64,000 bases of DNA, from contig CAIIXF020000006.1 in NCBI GenBank assembly GCA_903813345.2, forward strand, positions 40,124,848 through 40,188,847. Direction: 5' to 3'. Source of the stretch: Owenia fusiformis (lineage: Eukaryota > Annelida > Polychaeta > Sabellida > Oweniidae). The translations under genes and the position numbers were made by a program. Below, in pieces: positions 9,001 through 62,050 of the stretch; within the stretch, counting starts at the first letter, position 1; each line of letters begins with the position of its first letter. The notes under the pieces were generated by a model. The model saw only the letters and a list, made by a program, of their open reading frames with translations, had not been told where the DNA came from and ran no database searches.

Positions 9001-12000
9001 AAATAGCACGCTGTCTTGATATCTCAAGGTAACCCGATCATACGATCGGACATGTCCGATCATAAGTTCGTATGATAGTTGTCAAATATTAATCGTATGA
9101 CATGTATGAGACCAATGTTAATGCTACCAGGGGGAATCTGACCTGCAGGCCTAACCTTTTATACATGTTTTTTCTGATTTGAAAAATTCGATGTGTGATG
9201 TAAATTTCTCTATTTTTCAAAGAAATCTACAAATATATCATTACGATTTTATCTTTACATCGTTATTTTGATAATTCACATTTCGAATGAGTTACCTTGA
9301 AATATCAAGACATCGTGCTATTATCATATAGGACGCAGTGTAACTGTCCTTGACCATTTATTAAGCAGTGGAAAAATAATTTGCTTTATTGGTGACAAAA
9401 TGTTTCTACTTTCCTGGTGAATGTCGAGTCTCGCATCATGTGAATGCGATCCGTCTGCATGGGGTGATTTTATATCCTTAGTCTCCTGTGTCCGGTTGAA
9501 ATGATCTGAAATGTAATGCTGGTTCATTAATACACATACTTCATATACGAACCTACGGAAAACGAGTTGAATTTATTTGGTAGTTCCGTCGAATAAGTTC
9601 TGTATGCAAACTTGATAAACTCGCGACGAGGTTAAACTGGAATGGTCGGAGCCATGAATTTTTAAACAGGTCTGAAGTTCTTATCAAGCACCTTTTTGAC
9701 AAAGCACGTCGATAAAGCTCTTTGTGAAGACCGTAAATTAAACATGCCAAATCCGCATACATTTAAAACACGTTCGGTAATCCGGAACGTAGTTTGGTAT
9801 GAGCGCAGCTTTATGCTCTTTGATTCATAAATAAACACCCTCCACTACGTTCATCTTTAACTATTTAAAGTCCCAAAGAATTTTCATTTACATGTAAAGT
9901 CTATTTATCTGATATATACCGAGGCCTGTTTTAATGGCAATTCTATTTTTTCAGTTGCAATGGTGGCGTTGGAACCGAGCAGTCTTGTCCAGATGGTTTG
10001 GTCTTCGACCCTGTCCTGAACATTTGTAATTGGCCAGAGGTGACAAATTGTACACGTATGTATACAATTAAATACACTGCCCTAAAAAAAATTGGCAAAT
10101 AGAATAGAAAATAATTTAATTTGTCATACATTTCCAAACTATTGTAATAGCTAAAGAACAAAATTAATATTTAAGGATCGACAGGCGGCTTGATGTGTTA
10201 TCAAATGAAATGTTCCGGTTGCTAAACGTGAGGTACTGCATAAAAAAGGATAGGTATCGATTTAGTGAACTGAATTCAACTATGTTTTTCTCTTAAACCA
10301 ATTATTGAAAACATTCTGTAAAAAACACCGTCCTTTATGTGATGTTGACTGATTGGCAACAATTTAATGCAAAAGTTATTTATATCTATTTTATATAACT
10401 GTTTTTGTTAACATTTTTTTCAGTGCAATTGTTTTTTGTATCTTTCTACCAATTCTTGAGAATGAAATAAAATGTCTGTCCGAACCTTGTTAGAACAAAA
10501 TAGCATATTCAACATTTTCTTAGACTTCTCAATATTATAGTTTATTATAAAAAGGAAATTTCGGTTGATTTAACAAAAAGTATGCAAAAACTTAAAACAA
10601 ATCCCCCCAAAATAGATAAAAAATAAGATAAACATTTCATTTTATTAACGAGATACTTTTTTAAAATCAACCAAACGTTCCTTTGTACAATTACAATATT
10701 GAGAGACCTAAACACGTTGTGTTTATGTCGTTTTCTTCCAATGAGGTTCGGATAGATGTTTCATTTCATTCCGAACATATGATACCAAGAACCAAAGAAG
10801 TGCCTTATGTGTTTCTAAAACAATATAGAGAAAAGTATATATATAATTCAAATTATAATGTTACCATCCATCGCGTGTTCAAAAAGTTCACAATATCGAT
10901 ACCACTCCTTTATTAGTTTTATGCATTGCAACTGTAAGATACACGATATATAGAGTTCCGATCAAATAATTGAGTTAACCATCAGTCAAAATCGCAAAAA
11001 TGTAACAATATCCATAGCAAACATCAAGCTACATCCGCATACATAAGCTGTGCCCAAATACATCGAACGTAACCCAGGAATCGGTTCAAAAACCGCGGAT
11101 GCACGCCCTATAATTATAAATCGTATGTGCATAGACAAAGAAAACCGCATGACCACCAATTGAGCGGTCTACAACACTGAACAAACAAAGTCAGGCGCTT
11201 TCGCAATAACGCAAAGTCGTGAGACTCGAATCGTGTCCTGTCTAAAAAAAGATGCAAATGCGTTTATTATAATTTGATAGATGTCGTTCAGAGCAAAGAA
11301 ACAATTTTTAACACAGTGATCGGAAAAAGCAATCATAAAGGATGTTTACAAATCGTTGTCAAATTAATTACTCTTTTGATTCATATATCTATAAACATTT
11401 TATTTTAGAAAACGAATGCCCAAGAACTGTGTCTAACTTCACTCGAACGTCCACCTACGCCCAGTTCGGTATGATTTGGGGCGCCTGGATGAAAGACGAT
11501 TATGTCCTTGCTGATGGGGTTCGTGTATGGCTTATTAATGGTATCAACAGCGCGGAACTTCTGGAGTTTGCCAATGAGTTAGACTACACAAATGGCGTCA
11601 TCGGCAGAATTATCACACTTCCGTTCAATTGTGCAGGAACTGGTCACGTGGTCTACAAGGGCGACCTCTATTGCAATATTTATGCAACAAGAAACATGCT
11701 CCGCTATGGTATCGACACAGGCGCCAGTGAAATCAAAGAGCTTGTTGGCGTGGGCGTTTCAGCTGTTGATGAATACGACTGGGGATACAAGGCGTTCACG
11801 GACGGAGATTCTTCGTGGGGTTCCGGGGCATTTATTGACTTTGCTGTTGACGAGTATGGTCTATGGGTAATCTATTCCAGTGATGCCACATTCAATAAAA
11901 TAACAGTTTCGAAATTCGACGATGAATTCAATTTAACCGACACTCAATCGACCAACTATGATAAAGTCTTAGCTGGAAATGCGTTCATCGCTTGCGGAAT

Positions 12001-12301
12001 TCTTTACGTTGTCCAAGCCAGTTATGGAGACTTCTCTGGGTCCAACAACAATTATATTCGCTATACATATGACTTTGCCTTTAACACAGATGCAAATCTA
12101 GGCCCTCTGGATATACCTTTCCCTACCGTGGATAGGTCGTGTATGGTTGGTAATACAAATGTCAACTCATTCTATTCCCGGGTGAGTTACAGTGCACAGG
12201 ACGAAAAGATTTACGCCTGGAACTGTGCCTTCCACGAACGCATAGATGTTGCTTTCTCCCAACAAGGAGAATCCATCGTTAGACTATATGCAGATTACTA
12301 A
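6096..12301 (+). CDS. Secreted chitin-binding (CBM14) and olfactomedin-domain protein, copy 1
   Basis: Four coding exons: 6096-6126, 8340-8463, 9955-10055 and 11409-12301. All have gt/ag borders and compatible phases (1, 2, 1), giving 382 aa. Exons 1-2 give a signal peptide (MRSYTGVLFW, then AICIVGIVWAQ) and the start of a peritrophin-A domain. Exon 3 completes it (TCPDG-type core as SCPDGLVFDP, then CNWPEVTNC). Exon 4 is a whole olfactomedin propeller with the family hallmarks GMIWGAWM, GTGHVVYKGDLYCN, FAVDEYGLWVIY, AGNAFIACGILY and DEKIYAWN. The product should be secreted and bind chitin or a chitin-containing matrix through CBM14, while the propeller mediates protein contacts. It is the upstream member of a tandem pair, with its own TATA promoter. 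The first ATG after the TATA box with a good signal peptide was taken as start. Confidence 0.88.
6904..7558. mobile_element. Foldback MITE with about 150-bp TIRs and TA target site (Tc1/mariner-like)
   Basis: Arms at about 6904-7053 and 7408-7558 are inverted copies ('CACTCCCTTCCATAAGTTTG' against 'CAAACTTATGGAGGGGGGTG'). TA dinucleotides flank both ends (6902-6903, 7559-7560), as for Tc1/mariner insertions. There is no transposase. It sits in intron 1 of gene 1. A terminus-like fragment recurs near 20444-20470. Confidence 0.7.
8833..9477. repeat. Foldback element in intron 2 of gene 1
   Basis: About 8833-9036 and 9284-9477 are inverted copies of roughly 190 bp (for example 'ccccatgcagacagatcgc' against 'gcgatccgtctgcatgggg', 'caaggtaac' against 'gttaccttg'). 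The spacer holds a palindrome at about 9040-9060 (GATCGGACATGTCCGATC). No coding capacity. Confidence 0.7.
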
Positions 12302-19500: not shown

Positions 19501-21944
19501 CCTTGCATATGCTTCTGAAGAAAATGATAATTTACAATATAATCAGAAAACAGTTTCTGTTATGCCTGAGTCACATTTGCTTTGATTCATCGGCCGGCAC
19601 CAGGCCAATTAAGTATTTCATTCAATACTGAATTCAGTTATCGGTTTTGAACAAAATACTCAATCGGCCGGGTGCCGACCGATAAATTGGAGCAAATGTG
19701 ACCTACAACATAGATATTATTATGCATATTGTGATTTATCATGATACTATTGGTTGTCGAATGAACTAAGGTTTTAAAGAATTTTAGAATTGCTTCAATT
19801 GATATTTTGGTTTTTACTTTTGAGGAAAGTTGAAAACTCAATAAATCAATTAAGTTATTATTGTGGAAAACTTTTCACTTAATCTAAAAATGCTATAAAA
19901 GAGAAGGAAATGAATGTCATTTGAGGTTTAATATGGAAATCTCTTAAACCACACTAAAACGAGAATTTCAAAGTTATATAAACTCCTATATTGCAATTCT
20001 TGTTTGTTTTTTTAGTTGTAATAGTGGCGTAGGAACCGAGCTGACTTGTCCAGATGGTTTGGTTTTTGATCCTGTCTTGAACATGTGTAATTGGCCAGAG
20101 GTGACCAATTGCACACGTATGTATACAAAAAAGAATAAATATTGTATACGATGCAGGGGCGTAGCCAGCTTTCAGTCAGGGGGGGTGCGATCGCCGAAAA
20201 TTTTTCAGTTTTCGGTCAGGGGGGGTGCGATTTTGCCATAAGCAACACAAAAAATTAAGATTTCTTTTGAATTTTACAAAAATTGATGCAACTTCCTTCA
20301 AAATTGAGCTAGAAGCTTCAAATAAAAAGCATTTTAAAGCTCTTTTCTACCTCTATCCAATGGTCATATTTTGAAAGGTTATGGGGGGGGGGTGCGATCG
20401 CACCCATCGCACCCCCCCCTGGCTACGCCCATGCGATGTATACACTCCCCCACTAATTTAGCAACCGGAAGTCCACTGGGGATATAAAAGATATTGAATT
20501 TATCATAGATTTCGCCAACAAACTTATATGGGTTGCGCATATAATGTATGTTTCGTTTTATGCAGTGCGATATTGTGTAAGATATCTTTATATATGATAT
20601 GTAAAACATATTAAAATAGCAAGTGATTTTCAACAGTAGTCACGTGGAATTATATTCTTTAGTCAAGACTTAGTCCAGTGTAATTTTGATTCAATATATT
20701 CCAAGAAAATATTATAATGGTGAATTAGACACCAACAGTTTGTTATTCAATTAATGTGATGTCCCTTGACAAAAACTCAACATTTGGAGCATCGTTTTCT
20801 CTTCGCACCTTTTTGTGACATTTCTTTACCTTTGCTCATGTTTGCTCAAAAAATTTACACGTCAATACAACCATGAAATTTTAAAATGAACACACGATGC
20901 GCATGTGTGAATTGCCATTCACTTTTCCACGAGCTGATACATAAGACGTAGTGTAGATATCGTGTTATTCGATCAATTCATTAAATTTAATACAATTTAC
21001 CCGAATATAAATATAAATAATTCTCGATGAATACCTGTGACACTTTCACTTTAGAAAACGAATGCCCAAGAACTGTCTCTAACCTCACTCGAACGTACAC
21101 CTACGCCCAGTTCGGTATGATTTGGGGCGCCTGGATGAAAGACGATTATGTCCTTGCTGATGGAGTCCGTGTTTGGCTTATTAATGGTATCAACAGCGCG
21201 GAACTTCTGGAGTTTGCCAATGAGTTAGACTACACAAATGGCATCATCAACAGAATTATCACACTTCCGTTCAACTGTGCAGGAACAGGTCACGTGGTCT
21301 ACAAGGGCGACCTCTATTGCAATATTTATGCAACAAGAAACATGCTCCGCTATGGTATCGACACACAAGCCAGTGAAATCAAAGAGCTTGTCGGCGTGGG
21401 TGTTTCAGCTTTGGATGAATACGACTGGGGATACAAGGCGTTCACGGACGGAGATTCTTCGTGGGGTTCCGGGGCTTTTGTTGACTTTGCCGTTGACGAG
21501 TACGGCCTCTGGGTAATCTATTCGAGTGATGCCACATTCAATAAAATAACAGTTTCCAAATTCGACGATGAATTCAATCTCACCGACACTCAAGCGACCA
21601 ACTATGATAAAGTCTTGGCTGGGAATGCATTCATTGCATGCGGAATTCTTTACGTTGTCCAAGCCAGCTATGGAGACTTCTCTGGGTCAAACAACAATTA
21701 TATTCGCTACACATATGACTTTGCCCTTGATAGAGAAGCACATCTTGGTCCTTTGGATATCCCATTCCCTACCATTGATAGGTCGTGTATGGTTGGTACC
21801 ACAAGTGTCAACTCATTCTATTCCCGGGTGAGTTACAGTGCACAGGACGAAAAGATTTACGCCTGGAACTGTGCCTTCCATGAGCGCATAGATGTCGCAT
21901 TCTCTCTTCAGGATGAATCCATCGTTGGACTATATGCAGATTAA
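16550..21944 (+). CDS. Secreted chitin-binding (CBM14) and olfactomedin-domain protein, copy 2
   Basis: Coding exons 16550-16580, 17334-17457, 20016-20116 and 21055-21944 give 381 aa. Phases are 1, 2, 1 as in copy 1, and exons 1-3 have the same lengths. The signal peptide runs MMRCTGVLFLAICLVGAVWAQ; the second ATG (16553) aligns with the copy 1 start, so either may be used. CBM14 spans about residues 24-80 (ACSGQCPNDE...CEKFCSCNSG...TCPDGLVFDP...CNWPEVTNC). The olfactomedin domain follows to the end, with GTGHVVYKGDLYCN and FAVDEYGLWVIY. It is about 93% identical to copy 1 in the propeller but only about 71% over exon 2. The role is inferred as a chitin- or matrix-associated secreted protein. 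Confidence 0.88.
19563..19713. mobile_element. Foldback MITE, copy a (second copy at 25594-25733)
   Basis: Termini 'gcctgagtcacatttgct' and 'agcaaatgtgacc' are inverted, as are the inner GGCCGGCACC and GGGTGCCGACC segments. The whole element is a palindrome of about 150 bp. It lies in intron 2 of gene 2. Confidence 0.7.
20154..20433. mobile_element. MITE with CAGGGGCGTAGCCAG termini and 5-bp target duplication
   Basis: The left end CAGGGGCGTAGCCAG and right end CTGGCTACGCCCATG are inverted with one mismatch. They are flanked by CGATG at 20149-20153 and 20434-20438. Internal G-runs are mirrored by C-runs. Termini and a 5-bp duplication suggest a hAT-like (hAT5-type) non-autonomous element. 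It sits in intron 3 of gene 2. Older copies lie at 37430 and 42251. Confidence 0.75.
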
Positions 21945-42300: not shown

Positions 42301-45300
42301 AATTTCTCTCGAATTCTACAAGATTGACGCAACTTCATTCTAGAAGTCTCAAATAAAATAAAACTTTTTAAAGCTTTCATCTCCCTCTGTCTGATGGTTT
42401 TACCCATTGTAACCCTGGCTATGCACATGATATCTAGTACACTCAATACAATATTACATGATATGATCATCATTCTCAAAACTCATTTGGTTCACTTAAA
42501 ATAAAAATTCAAATATTTGGAAACTTTCTTGGTCTAAAAATAATATTTTGCTCAAGTCATTGATTGCTGCAATCAAATCCTGATATGTGTTTTGAAGTTT
42601 ATATTTAGGAAGATTTAGCCATTTCTTCTAAAATATGATTTTGAGTTGTATATGTAAAATGGTCCAATGCAATGTATAATCATGCTAATTTGCTTATTGT
42701 TCCAGGCTCTTGTACCTGTTTGCATCAGAAGCTGTACAACTCTTCTTAACTTAGATCCATGGAATTTTGATGCTAAGTAAGTTGAACTTCGAATACTTCC
42801 ATATACATGTTCATGTATAGGGTGACCCAATATTGGCACAGTTTTCTTTCAAAATGAAATGAAATTTAACTCACATAACTGACATAAATGCACATATCTC
42901 TAAAATAGATGGTAACATGTTTTGCTTGGTTACCTTGAAGAAAGATATTAGTTGGAGTTAGGGTAGTTGCATGATATATTATTCATAGAGTGTTATCTCT
43001 ACAACTGTGTTCTTAACATAAACAAATGGTTGAAAAGGTACATGTTTAAATTTATGTTTGGTCATCAACATGTTCATTATACACCTCATTTAGGGCCATC
43101 ATTTATTAGTGTGACTACTGGAGAAACACCTGATCTTTGAAATTTAGCAACAAACTTACCTGCTAAACATTCCCTTTGTTTTTATGTTATAGGTTCATAG
43201 CTCCTGAAAACATGCAGCTCAATAGGAAAGTAACTGAAGAGATTTTAAAACACAATGACAAGTGGTCAATCACTGTAGTGGAAGGTAAGCTTATTCTTAC
43301 TTTTGTCCTTGAATCTTTTCATTTTTCACTCCAAATAAATTTTCTTGTGACATACCTTACCTCCTGATATAACCAAAAAGAAAATAATTGTGTCACCAAA
43401 CAGAGTGTGAGGTGGATATAAAAAAGAGGAGAAGTGTTATTTACTGAAACATTAATTGGAATCTAAGGTTCTTTTCATCTTAAAATCCTGTCTTTTCAAC
43501 TGATTACCATAGTACACTGTATACGCATAAAGCCTGGATGAAAAATCAGTAAAGGGCCCCCCATTGGTGGTTTACATTGTTTACATTTGTGTTCTTGTGT
43601 TTTTATGTCACCACCAAAAGCGTTTTTTTTGTGAAGGCGTCTGGCATCATCTACAAGTTCCCAGAAGTTCAAATCTGACTTTAGATTTGACATCTGGCCT
43701 TCAATGACCTTCTCAAGGTCAAAAAAGGTCAAAAGGTCTTTTTTCAACTTGCTTCAAATTAACAATTTTTTTTCAAAATCATCAACAAGTTCCAAGAAGT
43801 TCAAATCTGAATTCAGATTGGACATCTGACCTTCAATGACCTTCTCAAGGTCCAAAAAGGTCTTTTTCCAACTTGCTTCAAATTGACTAATGTTTTTTTC
43901 AAAATCATCTTCAAGGTCTCAGAAGTTCATATCTGACTTTAGATTTGAGATTTGACCTTTAATGACCTTCTCTTGGTTAAAAAAGGTCAAAGGGTATTTT
44001 TCAACTTGCTTTAAATTGACTAAAATTTTTTTCAAAATGATCTACAAGATCTAAGAAGCTCAAATCTGATTTAAGATTTCAGATCCGACCTTCATTGGCC
44101 TTCTCAAGGTCAAAAAGGTCTTTCCAACTTGTTTTAATTTTTTTTAATTTTTTTTAGGTGGTGACATCACACACGGGCATTTTACGTCATAAAGGCTCAT
44201 CCGCTAGAGGCGCTGCGAGCGCTCGGCCATTTTGCCGGTCAATTCGGGTCAAATATTGTCCAACTTTACACATGGTTTTCTAGTAGTTGATGATGCCCTT
44301 ATTAACGTATGTAATGATTTTTGTCCTGTGCAGTTTAAAGAATTCTTTTTCTTCCAATCCTATAATTACATCATATTTTTTTCGAAAATCAGCGTTAAAA
44401 CTTGACACGGGTCAGCTATTTTTTCTCTAATTGTAATTAGGCCAGTCAATTGGTGATTTCACATCTGACAAATTGCAATAGTTTTGAAACATGGTTTAAT
44501 TGGTGAATTGATATATATGTAGCAACATATTAAAAATATAGGAAAATATATGTAGTGGACAAATATGAAATTTCACTTCTTAGGTACCCCCACCCCAATT
44601 TTGACTAGGGGTAAGGGAAAAAATAATTTCTCCATATTGGAATCGTTTTTACATGTTTTTATGTTGTATTAGTTCAGGGGAAAGATTCAGAGGGGATTTA
44701 AATCTACTTTTATTGCTTTTTTGTGCCAACAATTGACAATTTACCTCCCAAATACACCAAAATATGTTGTCATATGGCCAAAATATTTTATTATAATGCA
44801 TATATTTCTTAATTGCTTTATCCAAGAGCCATGGAAAAATTCATGGTAATACTTCTATATACAGGTAATACACATATGGAATACCAACTTCTCAACTTGC
44901 ATATTTTTGAAGAAAAAAATATTTAAAATTTCAATTTTTTGCCCCGCCCACTTTTGGGGTGACCTTACTTTTGCAATATAACTTCCAATATATACCACAT
45001 ATGTCCTCAAATTTGATATCAAAATACAAATATAAACCCATTCTGTCTTGTACATAACTTTTTATTGGAGTTATTTCCCCTGTCTTGTTAAAAATCTCAT
45101 AATATGCTTGATGCAAGATGAAATATTAGGGTCCAATTACCGTTACTTATAACAACTGAGATATCACATCTCTATAGCTTAAATCAACTCTAATTTGAGA
45201 ATACAACATGGTTACCTGACCCATAAACACTATCTCTTAGTTATTTAATCATTAAACAGTTTTAAAATGAAACTTAGAAACACTAGCGCCATCTAAAATT

Positions 45301-48300
45301 CAAGGGTCTACTTCAAAGTTGACTTCAAACGTTTGTTACAATAAACACCTGACCAATCCAACCATTCATCTATTGCAAAATTAGCTTTTCCAAATTAATA
45401 TATTTGAATAGAGGTGGAGAAAAATAAAAATACAAAATGAACATCAAAATAACAATTACACATTGAATATATAAATAAATAATATATATTTAATATAAAT
45501 ATACATATATTTACTCTATATATTGTATCAATATTACCAGCCATGTTTCAGAACAACATCTGCATATTTCATTAGTATGTACAATGAATCAAAAAGGTAT
45601 TAACCCTAGAAAACGAAATAAATACATAGACACCATAAAATTCGATATTCTGAATATATTATTAGAGTTTGTGTATTGGTTTCAATTTAATGAAGACTGA
45701 AGATCTGCTGTTCTGATTCCTGATTTGATGTCCTGTAGCTGTAGACTGATTGCAGTGCTGTAGGCATTTAAAAAGGTTAGTGATTACTGCGGTGCGATAT
45801 TCACAGGTAAGTGATTCACAGGTAAGTGATTACTGCGGTGCGATATTCACAGGTAAGTGATAAATGCGGTGCGATATTCACAGGTGAGTGATTACTGCGG
45901 TGCGAAATTCACAGGTGAGTGATTACTGAGGTGTGATATTTACTGGTCAATGATTACTGAGGTGCAAAATTCACAGGTCAGTGATTATTGAAGTGCGATA
46001 TACACAGGTAAGTGATAACGAGGTGCTATATTCAAAGGTGAGTGATTAATGAGGTACGATATATATAGGTGAGTGAGTGATTATTGAAGTGCGATATTCA
46101 CAGGTGAGTGATAACGAGGTGCCTTATTCAAAGGTGAGTGATTAATGAGGTACGATATATATAGGTGAGTGAGTGATTATTGAAGTGCGATATTCACAGG
46201 TGGTGATGATGAACAAATAACTGTCACTGATCTTATTAGCAAGATGAAAGAGTTCATAAATGACAGTGAAATTGAACCCTATAGCTTTAAATACATGAAG
46301 AAAGAGCTGAAAGCATTCTTTGGTGAGAACCTTATCATCAGTGATATCCAAGGAATACAAAATGTTGTTACCTTTCATGACAATGCTGCCAAAATATTGC
46401 ATGCTTTTCATCAACACACAGGAGACCAAGTAGATGAAAAAGAGAAAATTATAGAAACTGCAGCAAGTTTGATAAAAAGTGCCATAAAGGACAAAAAGCA
46501 ATCTCCCCAAACTTATCCTGAATATGACACAATGTCCTCCATCAATGAGTCATTAGACTTTTTACCTGACATTTTGTCGATGTTTTTGAGCAAGTTGTTT
46601 GTTGGTAAAGATGTTAGAAACAAAGTAGCATCAATTGGACAAGCTATTATGCAGGCCACTCGTCCAAATGCCCTTTTGGCCCCATTGCAGCTTGGTCTAG
46701 GTGTGCAGCTCCATCATCATTTCCAGTCAAGATTTTTGATTGACACACTTAACAAACATGGGTTTAGTTGCTCATATTCTGAGGTCCAGAGGTTTGAAAG
46801 GAGTGCAGCATTGATGCAAAACACAGACATACCTAACATTACTCCTAATCATGTTGTACATCATGTTGCAGATAATGTAGATCACAACATTCGAACTCTC
46901 GATGGCAAGAATACATTCCATGGAATGGGCATTATTGCAACAGTCACTCCTAAGGTGAGAACAACTCGGCCAGTGATCAGACATGAAGTGTCTTCAGAAG
47001 ACATAGAGGCAATTGGTCGCATCAATACTCACTACTATTCAAATGACAGTGATATGTTTAGTAGTTTGAGGTATGCAGAGCTTGTGAGACAATCATTTGA
47101 TAAACCTTTAACAGGCTTTGATCTTGTGTGGAAATCATCCTTGCTTTTTAAGACTCCTTGTCCACTTTGGTCAGGATTTATGCAGATGGTTTATAAGGGG
47201 GAACATCCTGGTGAATCTTCAGTCATGTTTCTACCTATGATAGATATGAACCCAGGTGACATGTCATGTATCTACTCAACTTTGAAGTTTGTTGCATCTC
47301 ATGCTGGACGGTACAACTGCACTCCTGTCATCACATTTGATCAGCCACTTTGGTGGAAAGCAAACAAAATTGTAGAAAATGAGCCAGAAGACAGTGATGT
47401 TCACAAAATGGTTGTAAGATTAGGGGGGTTTCATACCGAGATGAGTTTTCTTGGCTCTGTAGGCCACATCATGGAGGGGTCAGGATTAGATGCTGTCCTA
47501 AGCTTGGTATATGCTGAAAATACAGTCGGTCATATGTTATCTGGTAAGGCAGTTTCTAGGGCAGTTAGAGGCCACCTTCTGATTGATAGTGCATTGAATA
47601 CTATGTTAGCAGCTCAGATATATGACATTGATCTTGATCAGACCAATGAAGAACAAAATGGTACACAAGAACAACCATTTGTAGAAGTAGAGAATGATGC
47701 TACCCATATTGACCTGAAGGAATTGCATCTTGTCCTTGATAAGATAATAAATCATGTTCATGACAATGGTGACAAAATTGATGTTGCGACAGTCTTTGGA
47801 GAAAAGCTTCAAGCTGAGAAAGACTCACTTCAAAACCTAAAAACTGCCAAGCTATGGTTGCAATATATGGATATGATCGACCTATTTAGGAACTTCATAA
47901 AAGGAGAAAGGATTGGGAGTTGGACACTTCATCTCCAATGTTTGCATGATATGTTGCCATATTTTGCAGCAGCAGGTCACAATCTATACCTAAAGTCTGT
48001 ATATCTTTATCTCCAAAAAATGAATAACCTTGAAAAACAGACCCCAGAGGTATATGCCCATTTTATGAATGGGCTACATGTCATTCGTCGATCAGATAGG
48101 TCATGGGCAGGACTATCTGCAGATCTCATAATTGAGCAATGCCTGATGCGAAGCATCAAGTCAACAGGAGGTCTCACGAGAGGCCGGGGCATGGCTGAGA
48201 TTCAGCGTCTGGTGTGGATTCTTTCCTCACCTGCATGTGGAGAGATAAGCAGTGCAATGCAAGAACTCACTGATATAACATATGCCACAAGTGAGCAGCA

Positions 48301-51300
48301 TAAAGATGCAACACCAACAAGAATCACCAAAGATGTAACAGATGCTAAATGTATCCTGAAATACCTTGTTGAAAGAAATCCCTTTTTTCCTGAACAATCA
48401 TTACGTAACATCGCAACAGGAGTTGCAGCTTCTTCTGCTGTCAATGCATATGACGCAAAAGAATTAGGCAACGTGATTGTGGCATCTATGATTGGGAAAA
48501 AGGTATCTGAGTGTTCCTTCAAAAGAAAAAGCCAAGCTGTGACCATGGGATCAAAAACTGCAGTCAAGGTTAACAATGAAGAAATACACATAGATCCTAT
48601 TTTGCTTTTTCAACGCCTTACCATAGCTGGTACACGATCTGGTGATTTGTCAGAGGCTCTAGTTTATGAGCTTTGTTCCTTTCCACCGGCTTTGTTTGAA
48701 TCAAAAGGTGTAATGAGACCAGCAGTAAAATCACAACTGGCAGAAGCATTGTGGACACCTAAAATATCATCCTTACCAGGGCCAAGCGACAAAGATGTTC
48801 AACATGTGATTGATGGAGGCGCCCTTCTTCATCGCATTCCTTGGCAAAAAGGTTTTACATGGGAGAACATTTTAAGCCAATATGTATACTATGTGCAGTT
48901 GAGGTACCAAAATGCTAAAATAGTATTTGATGGGTACCAAAATGGCCCTAGCACAAAAGATGCAACTCATCTTCGTAGAAATGGAGGGAACACCGGGACT
49001 GTAATCCAATTCATTAACACAATGAAGCTCCAATGTAAGAAAGAAGATTTCTTAATGAATCCAACAAACAAGCAGAATTTTATTTTTCTGCTGTCAGAAC
49101 GACTAGAATCCATTGGTTGTGAGGTTTTACATGCAGAGGCAGATGCAGACCTTCTCATTGTAGAGACTGCAATTGAATGTGCTGCAACTTCTGAGACCAT
49201 TCTTGTAGGAGATGACACTGATCTCCTTGTGCTGCTTATTCATCACGCCCACAACATTGAACACAACATATTCTTCAAACCTGAACCAAAGCAATCCACA
49301 CACAAAACCAAAATATGGAACATCAAAGATACAAGACTATCTTTAGGTGACATAGTGTGCAGCAACATCCTATTCATTCATGCGTTTCTTGGCTGTGATA
49401 CTACATCAAGGCTATTTGGAGTTGGGAAACGGGTCTCAGAAAGGCAGATAAAGAAATCTGATGTCTTTCAGAAAAGTGCTTGCACATTTAAATTGCATGA
49501 TGCCACACAAGACATGATATCAAAAGAAGGAGAAGCTGCCTTTGTATCATTATTAGGAGGTAAGCTTGGGCAAACCTTAAACAAATTGAGATTACAAAAG
49601 TTTCATGAGAAAGCTGCCTCTAGTCGAGAGTCTGTTCATCCAAAAGTGCTTCCACCGACATCTGATGCTGCAAAGCACCACAGCCTAAGGGTATATCATC
49701 AAGTACAAGCATGGATGGGGATAAATCTTCCACCAGAGGAATGGGGATGGGAAATGAACAATGGCCACTATCTCCCAGTTGCTACAACTTTACCGGCAGG
49801 ACCTTCTTCACTCTTAGAAGTGATCAAATGTAATTGCAAGACAGGTTGCACAACAATGCACTGCACATGTCGAAAGAATGGAATGGACTGTTCCATGGCA
49901 TGTGGTGAATGTAGAGGAATATGTGCAAATATAAATAATGATGATTAATTGCCAACCGCAATCTCTCTTGAAGTCCAAAATCTGCAATGCCCTGTAGCAG
50001 TCTGAGATACTAGTATTTTAAGATTTCACAAATCTTTCTAAATCAGTGATTGTACTTTCATTTAAACAAACACACTATTATACCTTCACATAAGCACATA
50101 AGTGCAATGGCCCATAATTGGCACATTTGATTTGGTTTGATATAAATATATGTCAAAAACATACAGTATTAGCCTTACAAATAACCCCCCCCCCCCGTTT
50201 TCCGGATTTTTCAAATTGCAGTTATAATTTTGTTCAAAACAGGAGTCCCAAACTCGAATAAAAGTTAATATTGGATGAAATATGTCCAAATCATTCTTTA
50301 AGTTGTAGAATTGTTAGGAAATATTGCATAGTTTGAAAATTATTTAGCAAAAGTAAGGTCACCCCAAAAGTGGGTGGGGCGAAAATGTAAAACTTGTATA
50401 TTTTTTTTCTTCCCCAATATGCCACTGATGATACTGGTATCCCATATATGTTATGGCCATATATACATGTATCACCATGATTTTTTTAATCATTTTGGAA
50501 TGCACCAGTCTAGAAATATGAGAAAAGATACGTGAAATGTCAATCATTTAATGACTCATTTGGGGTCGTCCAGGGTGAAACAAAAAATTCTAAGCCTCGA
50601 ATGAAAGTTTACTTAGGTAAAAAATTTTGTTTTGTCATTCTATTATCATAATATAACAAGAAAACTTGAAAAAACTATTCAATTATAGATAAAAAAAATT
50701 TTTTAAAACAAATAGTCAAATTTAGGGGTGGGTCGTAGGGGGTACCTATGAAGTAAAATTTGACATTTGTCCACTAATTATATTTTCCTATATTTTTGAT
50801 ATGATATAAGGTGAATATTGATCAACAATTTAAACTAAGTTTGCAAACTATTGCAATTTGTCCTAGGTTAGGCTGTTTTTTTTCACCAATTGACTGGCCT
50901 AAATTTGAATTTTAAAATTGCGCCTTGAGTAAGCCACGTTTTATATATTTAGCTCAATCGTATTTCAAATTTGATAAAGATTCATCTATAAATGAAGAAA
51001 TGCCATGGACGCAAAAAATGTTGTGTTTTCGTCAAATCTTTGCTGACGATGCGGTTTTTAGTTTACGAAGAAATTCCCCCTCTATAGAGAAGTCGTAACT
51101 TTACTAATATTGAACCTATCAATTTGAAATAAACAGGATTAAAATAAGCAATTCTTTAGAAACACGGTGATATGTATTATGCCTATATAACAATATAAAT
51201 TATGAAAGATAATCATAGTTTAAAACACCTACCTGAATAGAACATTTCATTGCAAACATGAAAAACGACGGGTTGTACTTATACGTCCGCGCGATGTTTA

Positions 51301-54300
51301 TATACGTTGCATAGGATGTTGCTATGCAATACAGCGCACCTAGCGGATGAGCTTTTATGACGTAAAATGCCCGTGTGTGATTTTGTCGTATTAATGCCTT
51401 GTTATGAAAATTGTTGTCATCCTGTATATTTGTACACTCATTTTAATTTACAGCTCATCTGAAAAGATACTTTAACATTAAAAGAACATATTCGAGAAGA
51501 GCAAACCGGCCTGGGGCCTCACTCAAACACAAGGAACAAATCACAAGACGAAACAGACTAACTAGGGTAAGTTGATTTAGTGATCAATTTCCATTCCTTC
51601 TAGCCCAGTTGAGAAATATTTAGGTTTTAATTCCTGTTTGCAAGCAAGTTCAGCTAGGCCAAATCTGTGAATTTTACACCTTGATATTATTTAGCTTAAA
51701 AAGGTGAAAAAGTATGCATCAGTCTACTACTCAAATACCTTGTGATCACTGCTCAGGGTGCCTTCATTCATATATTTTAGATTGCTGTAACTTTAAGTGT
51801 ATCAATTTTGACAAAGTATCATAATAGGCTAGTAAAATCCAATGGATTTGGGAAGTCAGAGGGCCACTACATAATTTATAGGAATAAATAAGCATATTTT
51901 CGTTCATTTTTCAGTCGTACCGATTTTATTTTCGCAGCTTCAGAGAAAACATGGGCAGTAGTAGGGTTTCGAATAGTATTCTGAAAGTAATAAAAAAACA
52001 CAGAGGGGGGGGGGGTCCAAATGACCCCCCTCTTGTGACTTAGTGTTATAAAAAAAGTTGCAGACATTAGGGCTAATAGGGTCGCTCAAAATAAAGTTTT
52101 TTTGGAAAACCATGCTCCCTACATGAATTGGGTTTTCTTTTGGGGTAAAACTAATGTGTGATTTTTTAACATTAGTGGGCGTCAGCCATATTTGAAACAT
52201 TATTGTTAATTCAAACATGCCAGGGGGGCTCAGCCAATCAGCATTTCAGTATGTTAATTTATTGATATATGCATGAAAATTATTTTGCTGTGCATTTAAT
52301 CTTTGATAAATGCATGGCCTGAGCAATATTATTCTTTGAAAAGGGGTGAAAGCATATCATCAGTGTGTTCATTTCAGTCAAAGCTATGATTATCCAACTA
52401 AGTTTTCATAATTTTTCTGAATTAAATTAATTATTTCATTTCCTATAATATTTTGCAAACAAAACCTTCTCAATCATTTTCAAATGAATATCAATTGTAA
52501 CCCAACACCCCTATTTAGTATTTCTAAATAATGAACTTGTCCAAAATTTAATTTCTTCAAAGACAACAATCTTGTAGATGTGAATGGTTAATGTTTTACT
52601 TCATCATTAACCAGAGTCATGTTTGAATCGCAATAAAGAATCATGTATCATTATCCCACCGAACGAAGTTCGAGGGGGATATAGAAAAGCCGTCCGTCCG
52701 TCCGTCCGTCCGTTCGTCCGTCTGTCCGGGCGATAACTCAAATACCAGTTGACAGATTTGATTCAAATTTTATAGGATTATACCTTATGGGTGTAGGACC
52801 TCTGCTCGAGAAGGAATTTTCAATATGGCCACTCAATTCAAAATGGCCGCCATTTTTCGTAAAAAATGTAATCTTTGATAACTCAAATACTAGTTGATGG
52901 ATTTAGTTCAAATTTTATATGCTTATGCCTAGGGACAAAGGAGCTTCGCTCAAGATGAGATTTTCAAGATGGCCACTGATTTTCAAAATGGCGGCCATTT
53001 TTCGTAAAAAAACGTAATCTTTGATAACTCAAATACCAGTGAACAGATTTGGCTCAAATTTTATATGATGATGCCTAGGGACACAATAGATCTGTTCAAG
53101 AAAGAATTTTCAAGATGGTGGCTGAATTTCAAAATGGCGGCCATTTTTCATAAAAAAAGGTAATCTTTGATAACTCAAATACCAGTGAACGGATTTGGCT
53201 CAAATTTTATATGATGATGCCTAGGAACAAAGGAGATCTGTTCGAGAAAGAATTTTCAAGATGGCAGCTGAATTTCAAAATGGACGCCATTTTTCGTAAA
53301 AAAAAGTAATCTTTGATAACTCAAATACCAGTGAACGGATTTGGCTCAAATTTTATATGATGATGCCGAGGGACACAGTAGATCTGTTCGAGAAAATGTT
53401 TTCAAGATGGATGCTGAATTTCAAAATAATGGCCATTTTTCGTAAAAAACGTAATCTTTGATAACTCAAATACCAGTGAACAGATTTGGTTCAAATTTTA
53501 TATGCTGATCCCTAGAAACACAGTAGCTCTGTTTGAGAATTTTTTTTTAAGATGGCGGCTGATCTTCAGAATGGCTGCCATTTTTCATTAGAGAACGTAA
53601 TCTTTGGTAACTCAAATGCCGTTCGGTGGGATTTGCTACTCCGTGGAGTTGCTGTTTTTCTAGTTCTATATTGTAAATATAGAAGCATTCGTGTATGTAC
53701 TAACCCATTCTGATAACGCACTCAGGCTTCGCCTTCGTGCATTATGTGTATGGGTTAGTACATACACTCATGCATTTATATTTCCAATATAGAATAATAC
53801 ACGATTCTTTATTCCTTAAATGAATAATCACAAGGAGCACACACGTCTCAAACTCACAACCTCGTGGTTACGGCATTCAATCGCCTAGTTTGAACGTGCT
53901 AGCGCCCAAGCCCTCTCTCTCTCTGCCAACTCAACAACCCCAAATAAAGCTGTTTTTCTAGTGCAAATGTTTATTTTTGAATATGGTTCATGTTAAACTG
54001 TTAATTGTTTTAACAATTGTTACAATACATTTTCAGGAATTTTGCCTTTTGCCTATCCCAAAGCCCCTGGTGTTGTCTAGTTTTTTTTATATTAATACCC
54101 TTTATTATTTTGTACTTTCAGAAGCTTAAAAGTCGCAAGGATGCATTAGGAATGTTGGAATCTGAATGGTCGGAGACTAAGATAGCCCGTGTTGGAGCTA
54201 TTTTAACAGAAGAATACATCTCAAGTGATGAGGAGGACATAAATGAAGAGGATTCATCTTTAAAGCCAAATTGCCGCCCAAAGTTAGTTAAGAAACTCAC

Positions 54301-59754: not shown

Positions 59755-60970
59755 AACCTCACCAATATTTGCATTTACCACACCAATATTTGCATTTACC
59801 TCCCCGATATTTGCATTTGCCTGACCAATATTTGCAATTACCGCACCAATATTTGCATTACCTCCCCAATATTTGCATTTGCCTCACCAATATTTGCATT
59901 TGCCTCACCAAGATTTGCATTTGCCTGACCAATATTTGCATTTGTCTCACCAATATTTGCATTTGTCTCACCAATATTTGCATTTGCCTCACCAATATTT
60001 GCATTTGTCTCACCAATATATGCATTTGTCTCACCAATATTTGCATTTATCTCACCAATATTTGCATTTGCCTCACCAAAATTGGCATTTGCCTCACCAA
60101 TATTTGCATTTGCCTCACCAATATTTGCATTTGTCTCACCAATATTTGCATTTGTCTCACCAATATTTGCATTTGTCTCTCCAATATTTGCATTTGCCTC
60201 ACCAATATTTGCATTTGCCTGACCAATATTTGCAATTACCGTACCAATATTTGCATTTACCTCCCCAATATTTGCATTTGCCTCACCAATATTTGCATTT
60301 GCCTCACCAATATTTGCCTCACCAATATTTGCATTTGTCTCACCAATATTTGCATTTGTCTCACCAATATTTGTATTTGCCTCACCTATATTTGCATTTG
60401 TCTCACCAATATTTGCATTTGTCTCACCAATATTTGCATTTGTCTCACCAATATTTGCATTTGCCTCACCAAAATTGGCATTTGCCTCACCAATATTTGC
60501 ATTTGCCTCACCAATATTTGCATTTGTCTCACCAATATTTGCATTTGTCTCACCAATATTTGCATTTGTCTCTCCAATATTTGCATTTGCCTCACCAATA
60601 TTTGCATTTGCCTGACCAATATTTGCAATTACCGTACCAATATTTGCATTTACCTCCCCAATATTTGCATTTGCCTCACCAATATTTGCATTTGCCTCAC
60701 CAATATTTGCCTCACCAATATTTGCATTTGTCTCACCAATATTTGCATTTGTCTCACCAATATTTGTATTTGCCTCACCTATATTTGCATTTGTCTCACC
60801 AATATTTGCATTTACCTCCCCAGTATTTGCATTTGTCTCACCAATATTTGCATTTGTCTCAACAATATTTGCATTTGTCTCAACAATATTTGCATATGCC
60901 TCACCAATATTTCCATTTACCTCACCAATATTTGCATATGCCTCACCAGTATTTGCATATTTGCATAGCC
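59755..60970. repeat. 21-bp minisatellite with 393-bp higher-order period
   Basis: The unit 'ccaatatttgcatttgcctca' (21 bp) is repeated more than 55 times. Marker variants recur at a fixed distance: 'aaaattggca' at 60078 and 60471, a shortened 15-bp unit at 60301 and 60694, and 'ctgacc' at 60219 and 60612. This defines a 393-bp higher-order unit (18 x 21 + 15); an earlier copy is offset by 398. Long frames on both strands (ICICLTN, HLPHQYL, NANIGEA, MQILVRQ) are consequences of the period being divisible by 3. Confidence 0.92.
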
Positions 60971-60999
60971 TGACCGATATTATCCTAATCAATATTTCC

Positions 61000-62050
61000 A
61001 TTTGCCTCGACTAAGATCTGGACTATTTGCTTTTGACGTGATATACGACTTTGACCAATGAAAAGGTATCTTGAATTAGGCATCTCCTTAAATAATTAAT
61101 TGGAATTACCGAGAATCATCCGGAGTTTAATATTGTCATGTTATTTTTCTAGTATTTTCCCCAAGCTTTAATTCGCTGTCCTTAAGCTTTGATTATTTGT
61201 CCTACAGCTGATAAGTTATTATTTTGTTTAAACAAGGTTACGTCTATAGGGAATCATCGTATACATCATCATATTAGTCCTTCATAACCTTGTGAGGATA
61301 GCTTAAAGGAACATTGAGACAATGACATGTTTATTTAATGTTTTTCTAGCTTTAGAAATAAGTGCATGATTTCTATGGTTCTATTTTTGAAAAATACACG
61401 AAGGTTCATTCAAAGTTTATAGTCCAGTCAAAGTAACATTTGACCCAAAACTAATTGCAATAGAAACAAAATGTTGTTTTTTCAATTCATATAAACATAT
61501 GAAATGACATACTAAAAATCTACCAAAATCTATTAAGTGGAACATGTAAAAAAATCATTTTTGGTGCCCCCTCCCCTTGAAAAATAGACCCCCCTAAGGA
61601 AAAAATTATTTTTCAAATGCCTGCAATTTTTTGAAAGTAATTTTACAATTTCTTGCTTGTAATAAGGTATCCCAATCTGTGTATCTCTTTAACTTTGGTA
61701 TTCAGAGTGAATAAGAATATTTTTAACCCTTATTCATCTGAAATTTTGCATTAAATGCGCATAGTAATTTTACGTGAACGCCATTATATTCCTAAAAAGC
61801 AACTTAATCATGTATAAAAAAATCCCAGTTTTACCTTCTTGTGTACTCTATACATATACAAAGAAAGAGAATTTGACATTTATTAGTCGTTGAGAAAAAA
61901 AATCATAACTTTCGAAAAAAAAATTAAAAAATTAGGGGCAGGCCTTCATTCGCTTCACTTATTTTTAAATCACTAGGAGAATTTAGATCATTAACCCCTA
62001 AGGACTTTATAATGAAATCATATATATATTATGTATGCCTTAAGTATAAT
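61000..62050. other. Intergenic stretch, no gene seen
   Basis: AT-rich with several A-runs and short frames only. A segment at about 61900-62000 ('aggccttcattcgcttcact...ctaggagaattt') recurs diverged at about 62590-62660 on the far side of the composite element. The composite is therefore flanked by a direct repeat of about 100 bp. Confidence 0.45.

Follow-up and report, generated by a model that had tools for sequence, protein, structure and literature searches.

A likely AcademX-like transposon copy with a probable FEN1/XPG-like nuclease, nested in an older MITE-like element of Owenia fusiformis

Introduction

Academ transposons carry a nuclease of the XPG type and a Cys-rich finger, and the superfamily and its AcademX lineage are said to go back to the work of Kapitonov and Jurka in 2010 and of Kojima in 2020. 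According to one source, target-site duplications (TSDs) are 3 or 4 bp long in AcademX and 9 or 10 bp long in AcademH, a difference related there to the encoded nuclease versus helicase (PMC10045372); for AcademX it says 'nuclease', without the word XPG. In two further sources, Academ stands among the DDD/E superfamilies (PMC9587614), and 3-bp TSDs are also given outside Academ, for PIF/Harbinger (PMC2213677). In this study we describe a locus of the polychaete Owenia fusiformis that lies in a 64,000-nucleotide stretch of contig CAIIXF020000006.1 (hereafter the window, on our contig C6) and contains an uninterrupted open reading frame (ORF) of 1234 codons. An earlier note had read positions 44168-51379 of the window as a single intact 7.2-kb transposon. 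We found that this interval consists of two nested elements, an ORF-bearing element inside an older element resembling a miniature inverted-repeat transposable element (MITE), and that the inner copy (44438-50901) is likely an AcademX-like cut-and-paste transposon.

Results

The nested elements are made up of the following parts.

44438..50901, plus strand: ORF-bearing DNA transposon copy of 6464 bp, with boundaries common to other genomic copies in different flanks
44438..44456, plus strand: left terminal inverted repeat (TIR), TAGGCCAGTCAATTGGTGA, the outer part of an imperfect inverted arm that reaches to about 44988
50883..50901, minus strand: right TIR, whose imperfect arm starts at about 50333
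44435..44437, unstranded: left copy of the TSD AAT, the target being present once in each of the 29 outer-end loci
50902..50904, unstranded: right copy of the TSD AAT, from the TSD reading at near-copy boundaries
44168..44437, unstranded: left part of the MITE-like host element, with the outer TIR CACACACGGGCATTTTACGTCATAAAG at 44168
50905..51379, unstranded: right part of the MITE-like host element, with the outer TIR ending at 51379

Relatives were sought in the 498-Mb genome (525 contigs); all counts of genome matches are lower bounds, only the best-ranked candidates having been scored. When the window protein was used as the query, the best 38 of 947 candidates were scored, and these included no fewer than 13 near-copy sites besides the window and 7 or more sites of more distant relatives. 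The near copies, which share 89-98% DNA identity with the window by piece (mostly 94-98%), matched it at 44438-50901 with a largest overrun of 13 nt (L022), and three near-copy loci matched the window elsewhere only at 52651-53000, in a tandem array. The ends of the ORF-bearing element recur in unlike flanks. In the window its junctions read ...TGTAAT, then TAGGCCAGTCAATTGGTGA ... TCACCAATTGACTGGCCTA, then AATTTG..., and its inverted arms are imperfect and about 0.57 kb long (44438-44988 and 50333-50901), in place of the subterminal inverted repeats of about 1 kb that had been described previously. TSDs were read at 11 of the 13 other near-copy sites (C4:14.16M and C2:33.36M were left out), eight of which had both ends in the locus sequence and three one end. 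At all nine sites with both ends in the sequence, namely the eight near copies (TTG, TTA, GAA, GTA, TGA, AAT, CAA and ATA) and the window (AAT), the duplication was 3 bp long.

The outer ends of the interval behaved as a separate unit. The inverted repeats at 44166-44215 and 51332-51381 match each other at 94% and form the outer ends, CACACACGGG, of the host element. Searches with its first 133 bp and last 180 bp gave at least 41 and at least 40 matches, respectively. From the former, 30 loci were cut out, one of them (L035) being the window itself. The other 29 (L036-L064) matched the window at about 44168-44438 and 50902-51381, with a few overrunning the host-element boundaries by at most 33 nt and one (L052) matching also the tandem array left of 44168. 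In most of the loci having both the left and the right piece, the two overlap by about 4 nt. The length between the outer ends was about 0.78 kb in most loci, about 2.3 kb in L036 and 520 bp in L063.

The two host halves were then joined by a script with one AAT, giving 745 bp, and aligned to the 29 loci. At 82-86% identity, 22 of them aligned from position 1, 2 or 8 to 745; two more aligned from 47 to 745, and five in part only. The empty site TGTAATTT was found without the insert in 29/29 loci, with substitutions in a few of them and small gaps in three (6 nt directly beside the site in L036, 1 nt nearby in L042 and L043). The comparison of copy boundaries with empty sites, which the earlier note had proposed, therefore fixed the target duplication at 3 bp. 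The host element's own duplications (n = 22) were 3 bp long in ten cases, 2 bp in seven and 4 bp in two, with single cases of 5, 1 and 0 bp. A tandem repeat of about 133/258 bp (43646-44131) abuts the MITE-like element on its left, and a similar array precedes the host-element copy in L052.

Since the near copies and the outer-end loci match separate parts of the window, two sets of inverted repeats are present, and the interval 44168-51379 is an ORF-bearing element inside an older MITE-like one. The matching inverted ends noted earlier do exist, but they do not bound one transposon: the near copies stop at 44438 on the left and at 50901 on the right. A single 7.2-kb transposon with CACACACGGG ends at 44168 and 51379 would account for the 94% inverted repeats and for the ORF between them; however, apart from the window, none of the outer-end matches (at least 41 and at least 40) lies at an ORF-element site, the outer ends recur at loci without the ORF, and both junctions consist of the inner TIRs with a 3-bp TSD. 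We regard this explanation as extremely improbable. The AT/AT flank is the duplication of the MITE-like host element, and because it belongs to that host, the earlier argument from this flank for a distinct lineage falls; the ORF-bearing element itself has a 3-bp TSD. This element belongs to a dispersed, multi-copy family with TIRs, a 3-bp TSD and a natural empty site.

The 1234-codon ORF was present as reported earlier, and the nested copy was next compared with an intact relative, L065 (7422 bp, TIR TAGGC..., TSD TAA), whose protein has 1482 residues and is 67-68% identical to the window ORF at the amino acid level.

46244..49948, plus strand: ORF of 1234 aa, a probable DDE transposase with a FEN1/XPG-like nuclease, lacking the N-terminal part in comparison with L065
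45774..46207, plus strand: tandem array with a unit of about 31 bp, at the place that holds N-terminal coding sequence in six near-copy sites

The first Met of the window ORF aligns to residue 233 of L065, and the part of L065 before this residue contains C-x2-C and H-x2-C motifs. In the window element, the counterpart of this part amounts to about a dozen residues directly upstream of the Met, and a tblastn search with the L065 N-terminus matched the element only from about residue 233 on, besides three chance-level matches. Among the 12 near-copy sites that cover the region, the N-terminal sequence is partly kept at six (C12:35.18M, C6:3.30M, C1:25.32M, C1:12.29M, C8:6.76M and C3:32.69M) and gone at six, and at none of the 12 does the match to L065 begin earlier than about query residue 143. 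The units of the 31-bp array upstream of the ORF contain CAGGTGAGT or CAGGTAAGT, which resemble splice sites. As the window ORF starts at L065 residue 233, the copy is not established as intact, contrary to its earlier description. The absence of the N-terminal Cys/His motifs implies that it is probably not autonomous, even though the long frame has been kept; it may have been moved by the protein of a fuller relative.

The ORF body differs from that of L065 with a proportion of nonsynonymous differences (pN) of 0.20 and of synonymous differences (pS) of 0.78, the synonymous sites being saturated, and it is under purifying selection in this comparison. A domesticated gene, or an ordinary gene of the host enclosed by inverted repeats through chance, could also be expected to show such a low pN relative to pS in one long ORF. 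However, the sequence is multi-copy, dispersed and flanked by TSDs, and decayed copies exist: stops were found in at least one matched stretch at 13/13 other near-copy sites, although frame slips may explain some of these. The probability of a host gene is practically negligible.

The family extends well beyond the near copies. Two members of a distant family, L068 and L069, are 6.43 kb long each and 99.7% identical, with TSDs TAC and AAG and with TIRs of 521 bp that are 97% alike and start with TAGTGG. Their 1526-codon frames are open and differ at 8 of 4578 coding bases; this near-identity reflects recent transposition. TIRs starting with TAG and 3-bp TSDs are common to L065, L068 and L069. 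When the distant member L067 served as the query and the best 30 of 982 candidate sites were scored, a frame of at least 1000 aa without a stop in the match was found at 20 of them. The ORF is conserved across a large radiation of relatives within the same genome. Outside it, pattern-based scans of prokaryote genomes gave 8 and 94 pattern matches and one of viral contigs gave 70, none of which was confirmed as a relative of the window protein.

Eight proteins were aligned (the window, L065, L010, L066, L067, L068, L072 and L073), and the following regions of the window ORF were compared in this alignment.

46871..48136, plus strand: span of the candidate DDE triad D210, D366 and E631, invariant in 8/8 aligned proteins, with a presumed catalytic role
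48812..49429, plus strand: FEN1/XPG-like motif region from D857 to K1062, with D857, D896, K905, R912, D967, D969, D991, D993 and D1052
49829..49930, plus strand: Cys-rich C-terminal tail, with six Cys invariant in 7/8 aligned proteins; L068 lacks the tail

To judge from their conservation, D210, D366 and E631 could be a DDE triad in which a long insertion precedes the E. Two observations weigh against this assignment: no family in Pfam or NCBIfam matches the window protein, and AlphaFold run without an alignment gave a poor model of the DDE region, with a predicted local distance difference test score (pLDDT) of about 37. A regular expression for the Cys-rich tail fitted 1/8 proteins.

The C-terminal region is a probable FEN1/XPG-like nuclease. 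The acidic residues of FEN1 and its helical K/R pair have catalytic roles, and the motifs found here (VIDGG, VFDGY...K-x6-R, EADAD, GDDTD and GCDTTSR) occur in an order that parallels D34, D86, K93, E158, E160, D179, D181 and D233 of FEN1; the second residue of its K/R pair we take to be R100. Six of the seven acidic positions, together with K905-x6-R912, are invariant in 8/8 aligned proteins, and the seventh, 967, is D in three and E in five. In this region the other seven proteins are 18-70% identical to the window. The region shares with FEN1, EXO1 and XPG (the Rad2 group) the seven acidic positions in order, the K-x6-R and a GCD/GSD motif, and differs in being part of a transposon protein and in lacking a significant profile match.

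A profile of the nuclease region, compared with 177,635 PDB sequences, listed seven entries at expect values (E) up to 10. Four were Exonuclease 1 constructs, three of which were on top (E 0.13-0.14); the EXO1 match, at E 0.13 below significance, fell on the K/R and GCD motifs, with K85 and R92 as the EXO1 counterparts of the K/R pair. The remaining three entries were orotidine 5'-phosphate decarboxylase, ribosomal protein uL11 and 2qip, the last presumably NYN/PIN-like. Pfam scans revealed no XPG family at E up to 1 in five proteins or at E up to 10 in the eight nuclease regions, and one of these regions gave a weak match to NYN_YacP (E 0.11). In decoy tests, in which the PDB FEN1 rows were partial sequences and L070, a viral-contig protein resembling FEN1, served as a comparator, the family profile placed human FEN1 above 1000/1000 shuffles and L070 above 993/1000. 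Searches for relatives of L070 found none beyond its own place.

Several results speak against the nuclease assignment. Taken alone, the pieces of the EXO1 match were weak, at an independent E of about 1500 for one and 12 for another, and a third aligned piece was out of place. In the PDB, a whole-length profile of five proteins had no match with an E of 10 or below, and the only hits of the window protein by itself were three chains at chance level (E 0.34-0.76). A genome search with Pfam XPG_I gave four other places above the cut-off and did not match the window ORF, and hhalign against a small FEN1 set, in which the row 5zod was shifted by one residue, gave a probability of 1.9% over 27 columns that covered the GCD motif only. 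Three archaeal FEN1s scored above 698, 949 and 890 of 1000 shuffles. In the reverse decoy test, the shuffles scoring as high as or higher than the real sequence numbered, of 300, 105 for the window, 3 for L065, 2 for L010, 26 for L068 and 16 for L073; the best match of the window lay outside the nuclease region, and L066, L067 and L072 were without a match. AlphaFold without an alignment gave a pLDDT of about 37 for the window nuclease region as well. Because the profiles are not significant and the AlphaFold model is poor, the nuclease call rests on the conserved motifs.

The non-significant profile comparisons are what would be seen if the region were a degenerate or non-catalytic fold, or if the resemblance to FEN1 motifs were fortuitous. 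We consider this quite improbable, as the acidic residues and K-x6-R occur in FEN1 order in all eight proteins despite their divergence, and EXO1 ranks first in the PDB comparison, though at an E below significance. The earlier proposal of a FEN1/XPG-like nuclease therefore holds in its motifs but not at the level of a significant profile match.

Several other features were observed in the window. A 146-bp tandem array lies at 52732-53617, and similar units occur in L019 and in the ORF copy C12:0.62M (L016, L029). On the reverse strand, an ORF of 637 aa (276-2189) resembles by eye the reverse transcriptase of a retrotransposon without long terminal repeats. At 11342-12301 and 21027-21944 lie two ORFs (319 and 305 aa) that are alike and, to judge from resemblance, are perhaps a gene pair of the olfactomedin-like type. 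Long repetitive ORFs on both strands at 59769-61001 are apparently derived from a minisatellite.

Discussion

The size of the TSD and the type of domain make AcademX the closest known kind. The likeness, which is one of description only, comprises the TIRs, the 3-bp TSD and a protein that resembles a transposase and also bears nuclease motifs and a Cys-rich part; the window copy differs in lacking the N-terminal Cys/His region of its fuller relatives. AcademH belongs to the same superfamily in the literature but is described with a helicase and TSDs of 9 or 10 bp (PMC10045372), as against 3 bp here. A Pfam scan of five proteins gave no significant helicase match, AAA_22 and Pox_D5 reaching E of about 0.09 in one protein each. 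The family thus looks like a new one of a known transposon kind, likened to AcademX by description and not by sequence, and the earlier suggestion of an Academ-like element stands as to kind (3-bp TSD, nuclease motifs and Cys-rich tail), although the anatomy on which it was built was wrong.

The absence of any match in the profile libraries would also suit a superfamily sister to Academ, or a different one with 3-bp TSDs, whose transposase became fused to an independently acquired FEN1/XPG-like domain, and such TSDs are given for PIF/Harbinger (PMC2213677). However, a nuclease with a TSD of 3-4 bp is the very combination described for AcademX (PMC10045372), and we consider a separate origin unlikely, while giving it some weight. 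It is somewhat less likely still that the family and its radiation constitute a superfamily separate from AcademX, with recently active members in this genome and with a FEN1-like nuclease that is joined to a DDE transposase and is obligate for transposition.

For the AcademX-like copy and its relatives, we propose the following mechanism. The N-terminal two thirds of the protein would form an RNase H-fold DDE transposase (D210/D366/E631), which would cut at the TAGGCC ends and join them to the target DNA with a 3-bp stagger. The C-terminal FEN1/XPG-type, structure-specific nuclease may trim strand ends or flaps arising from excision or integration, and DNA could be bound by the Cys-rich tail and, in the fuller relatives, by the N-terminal Cys/His motifs.

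In the corrected anatomy, a different element accounts for the AT/AT flank, which had been the main reason for proposing a distinct lineage, and the host copies provide a natural empty-site proof of the 3-bp target duplication. Moreover, given the many relatives with long frames and the pair that is 99.7% identical, the role of a FEN1-like nuclease in DNA transposition becomes testable.

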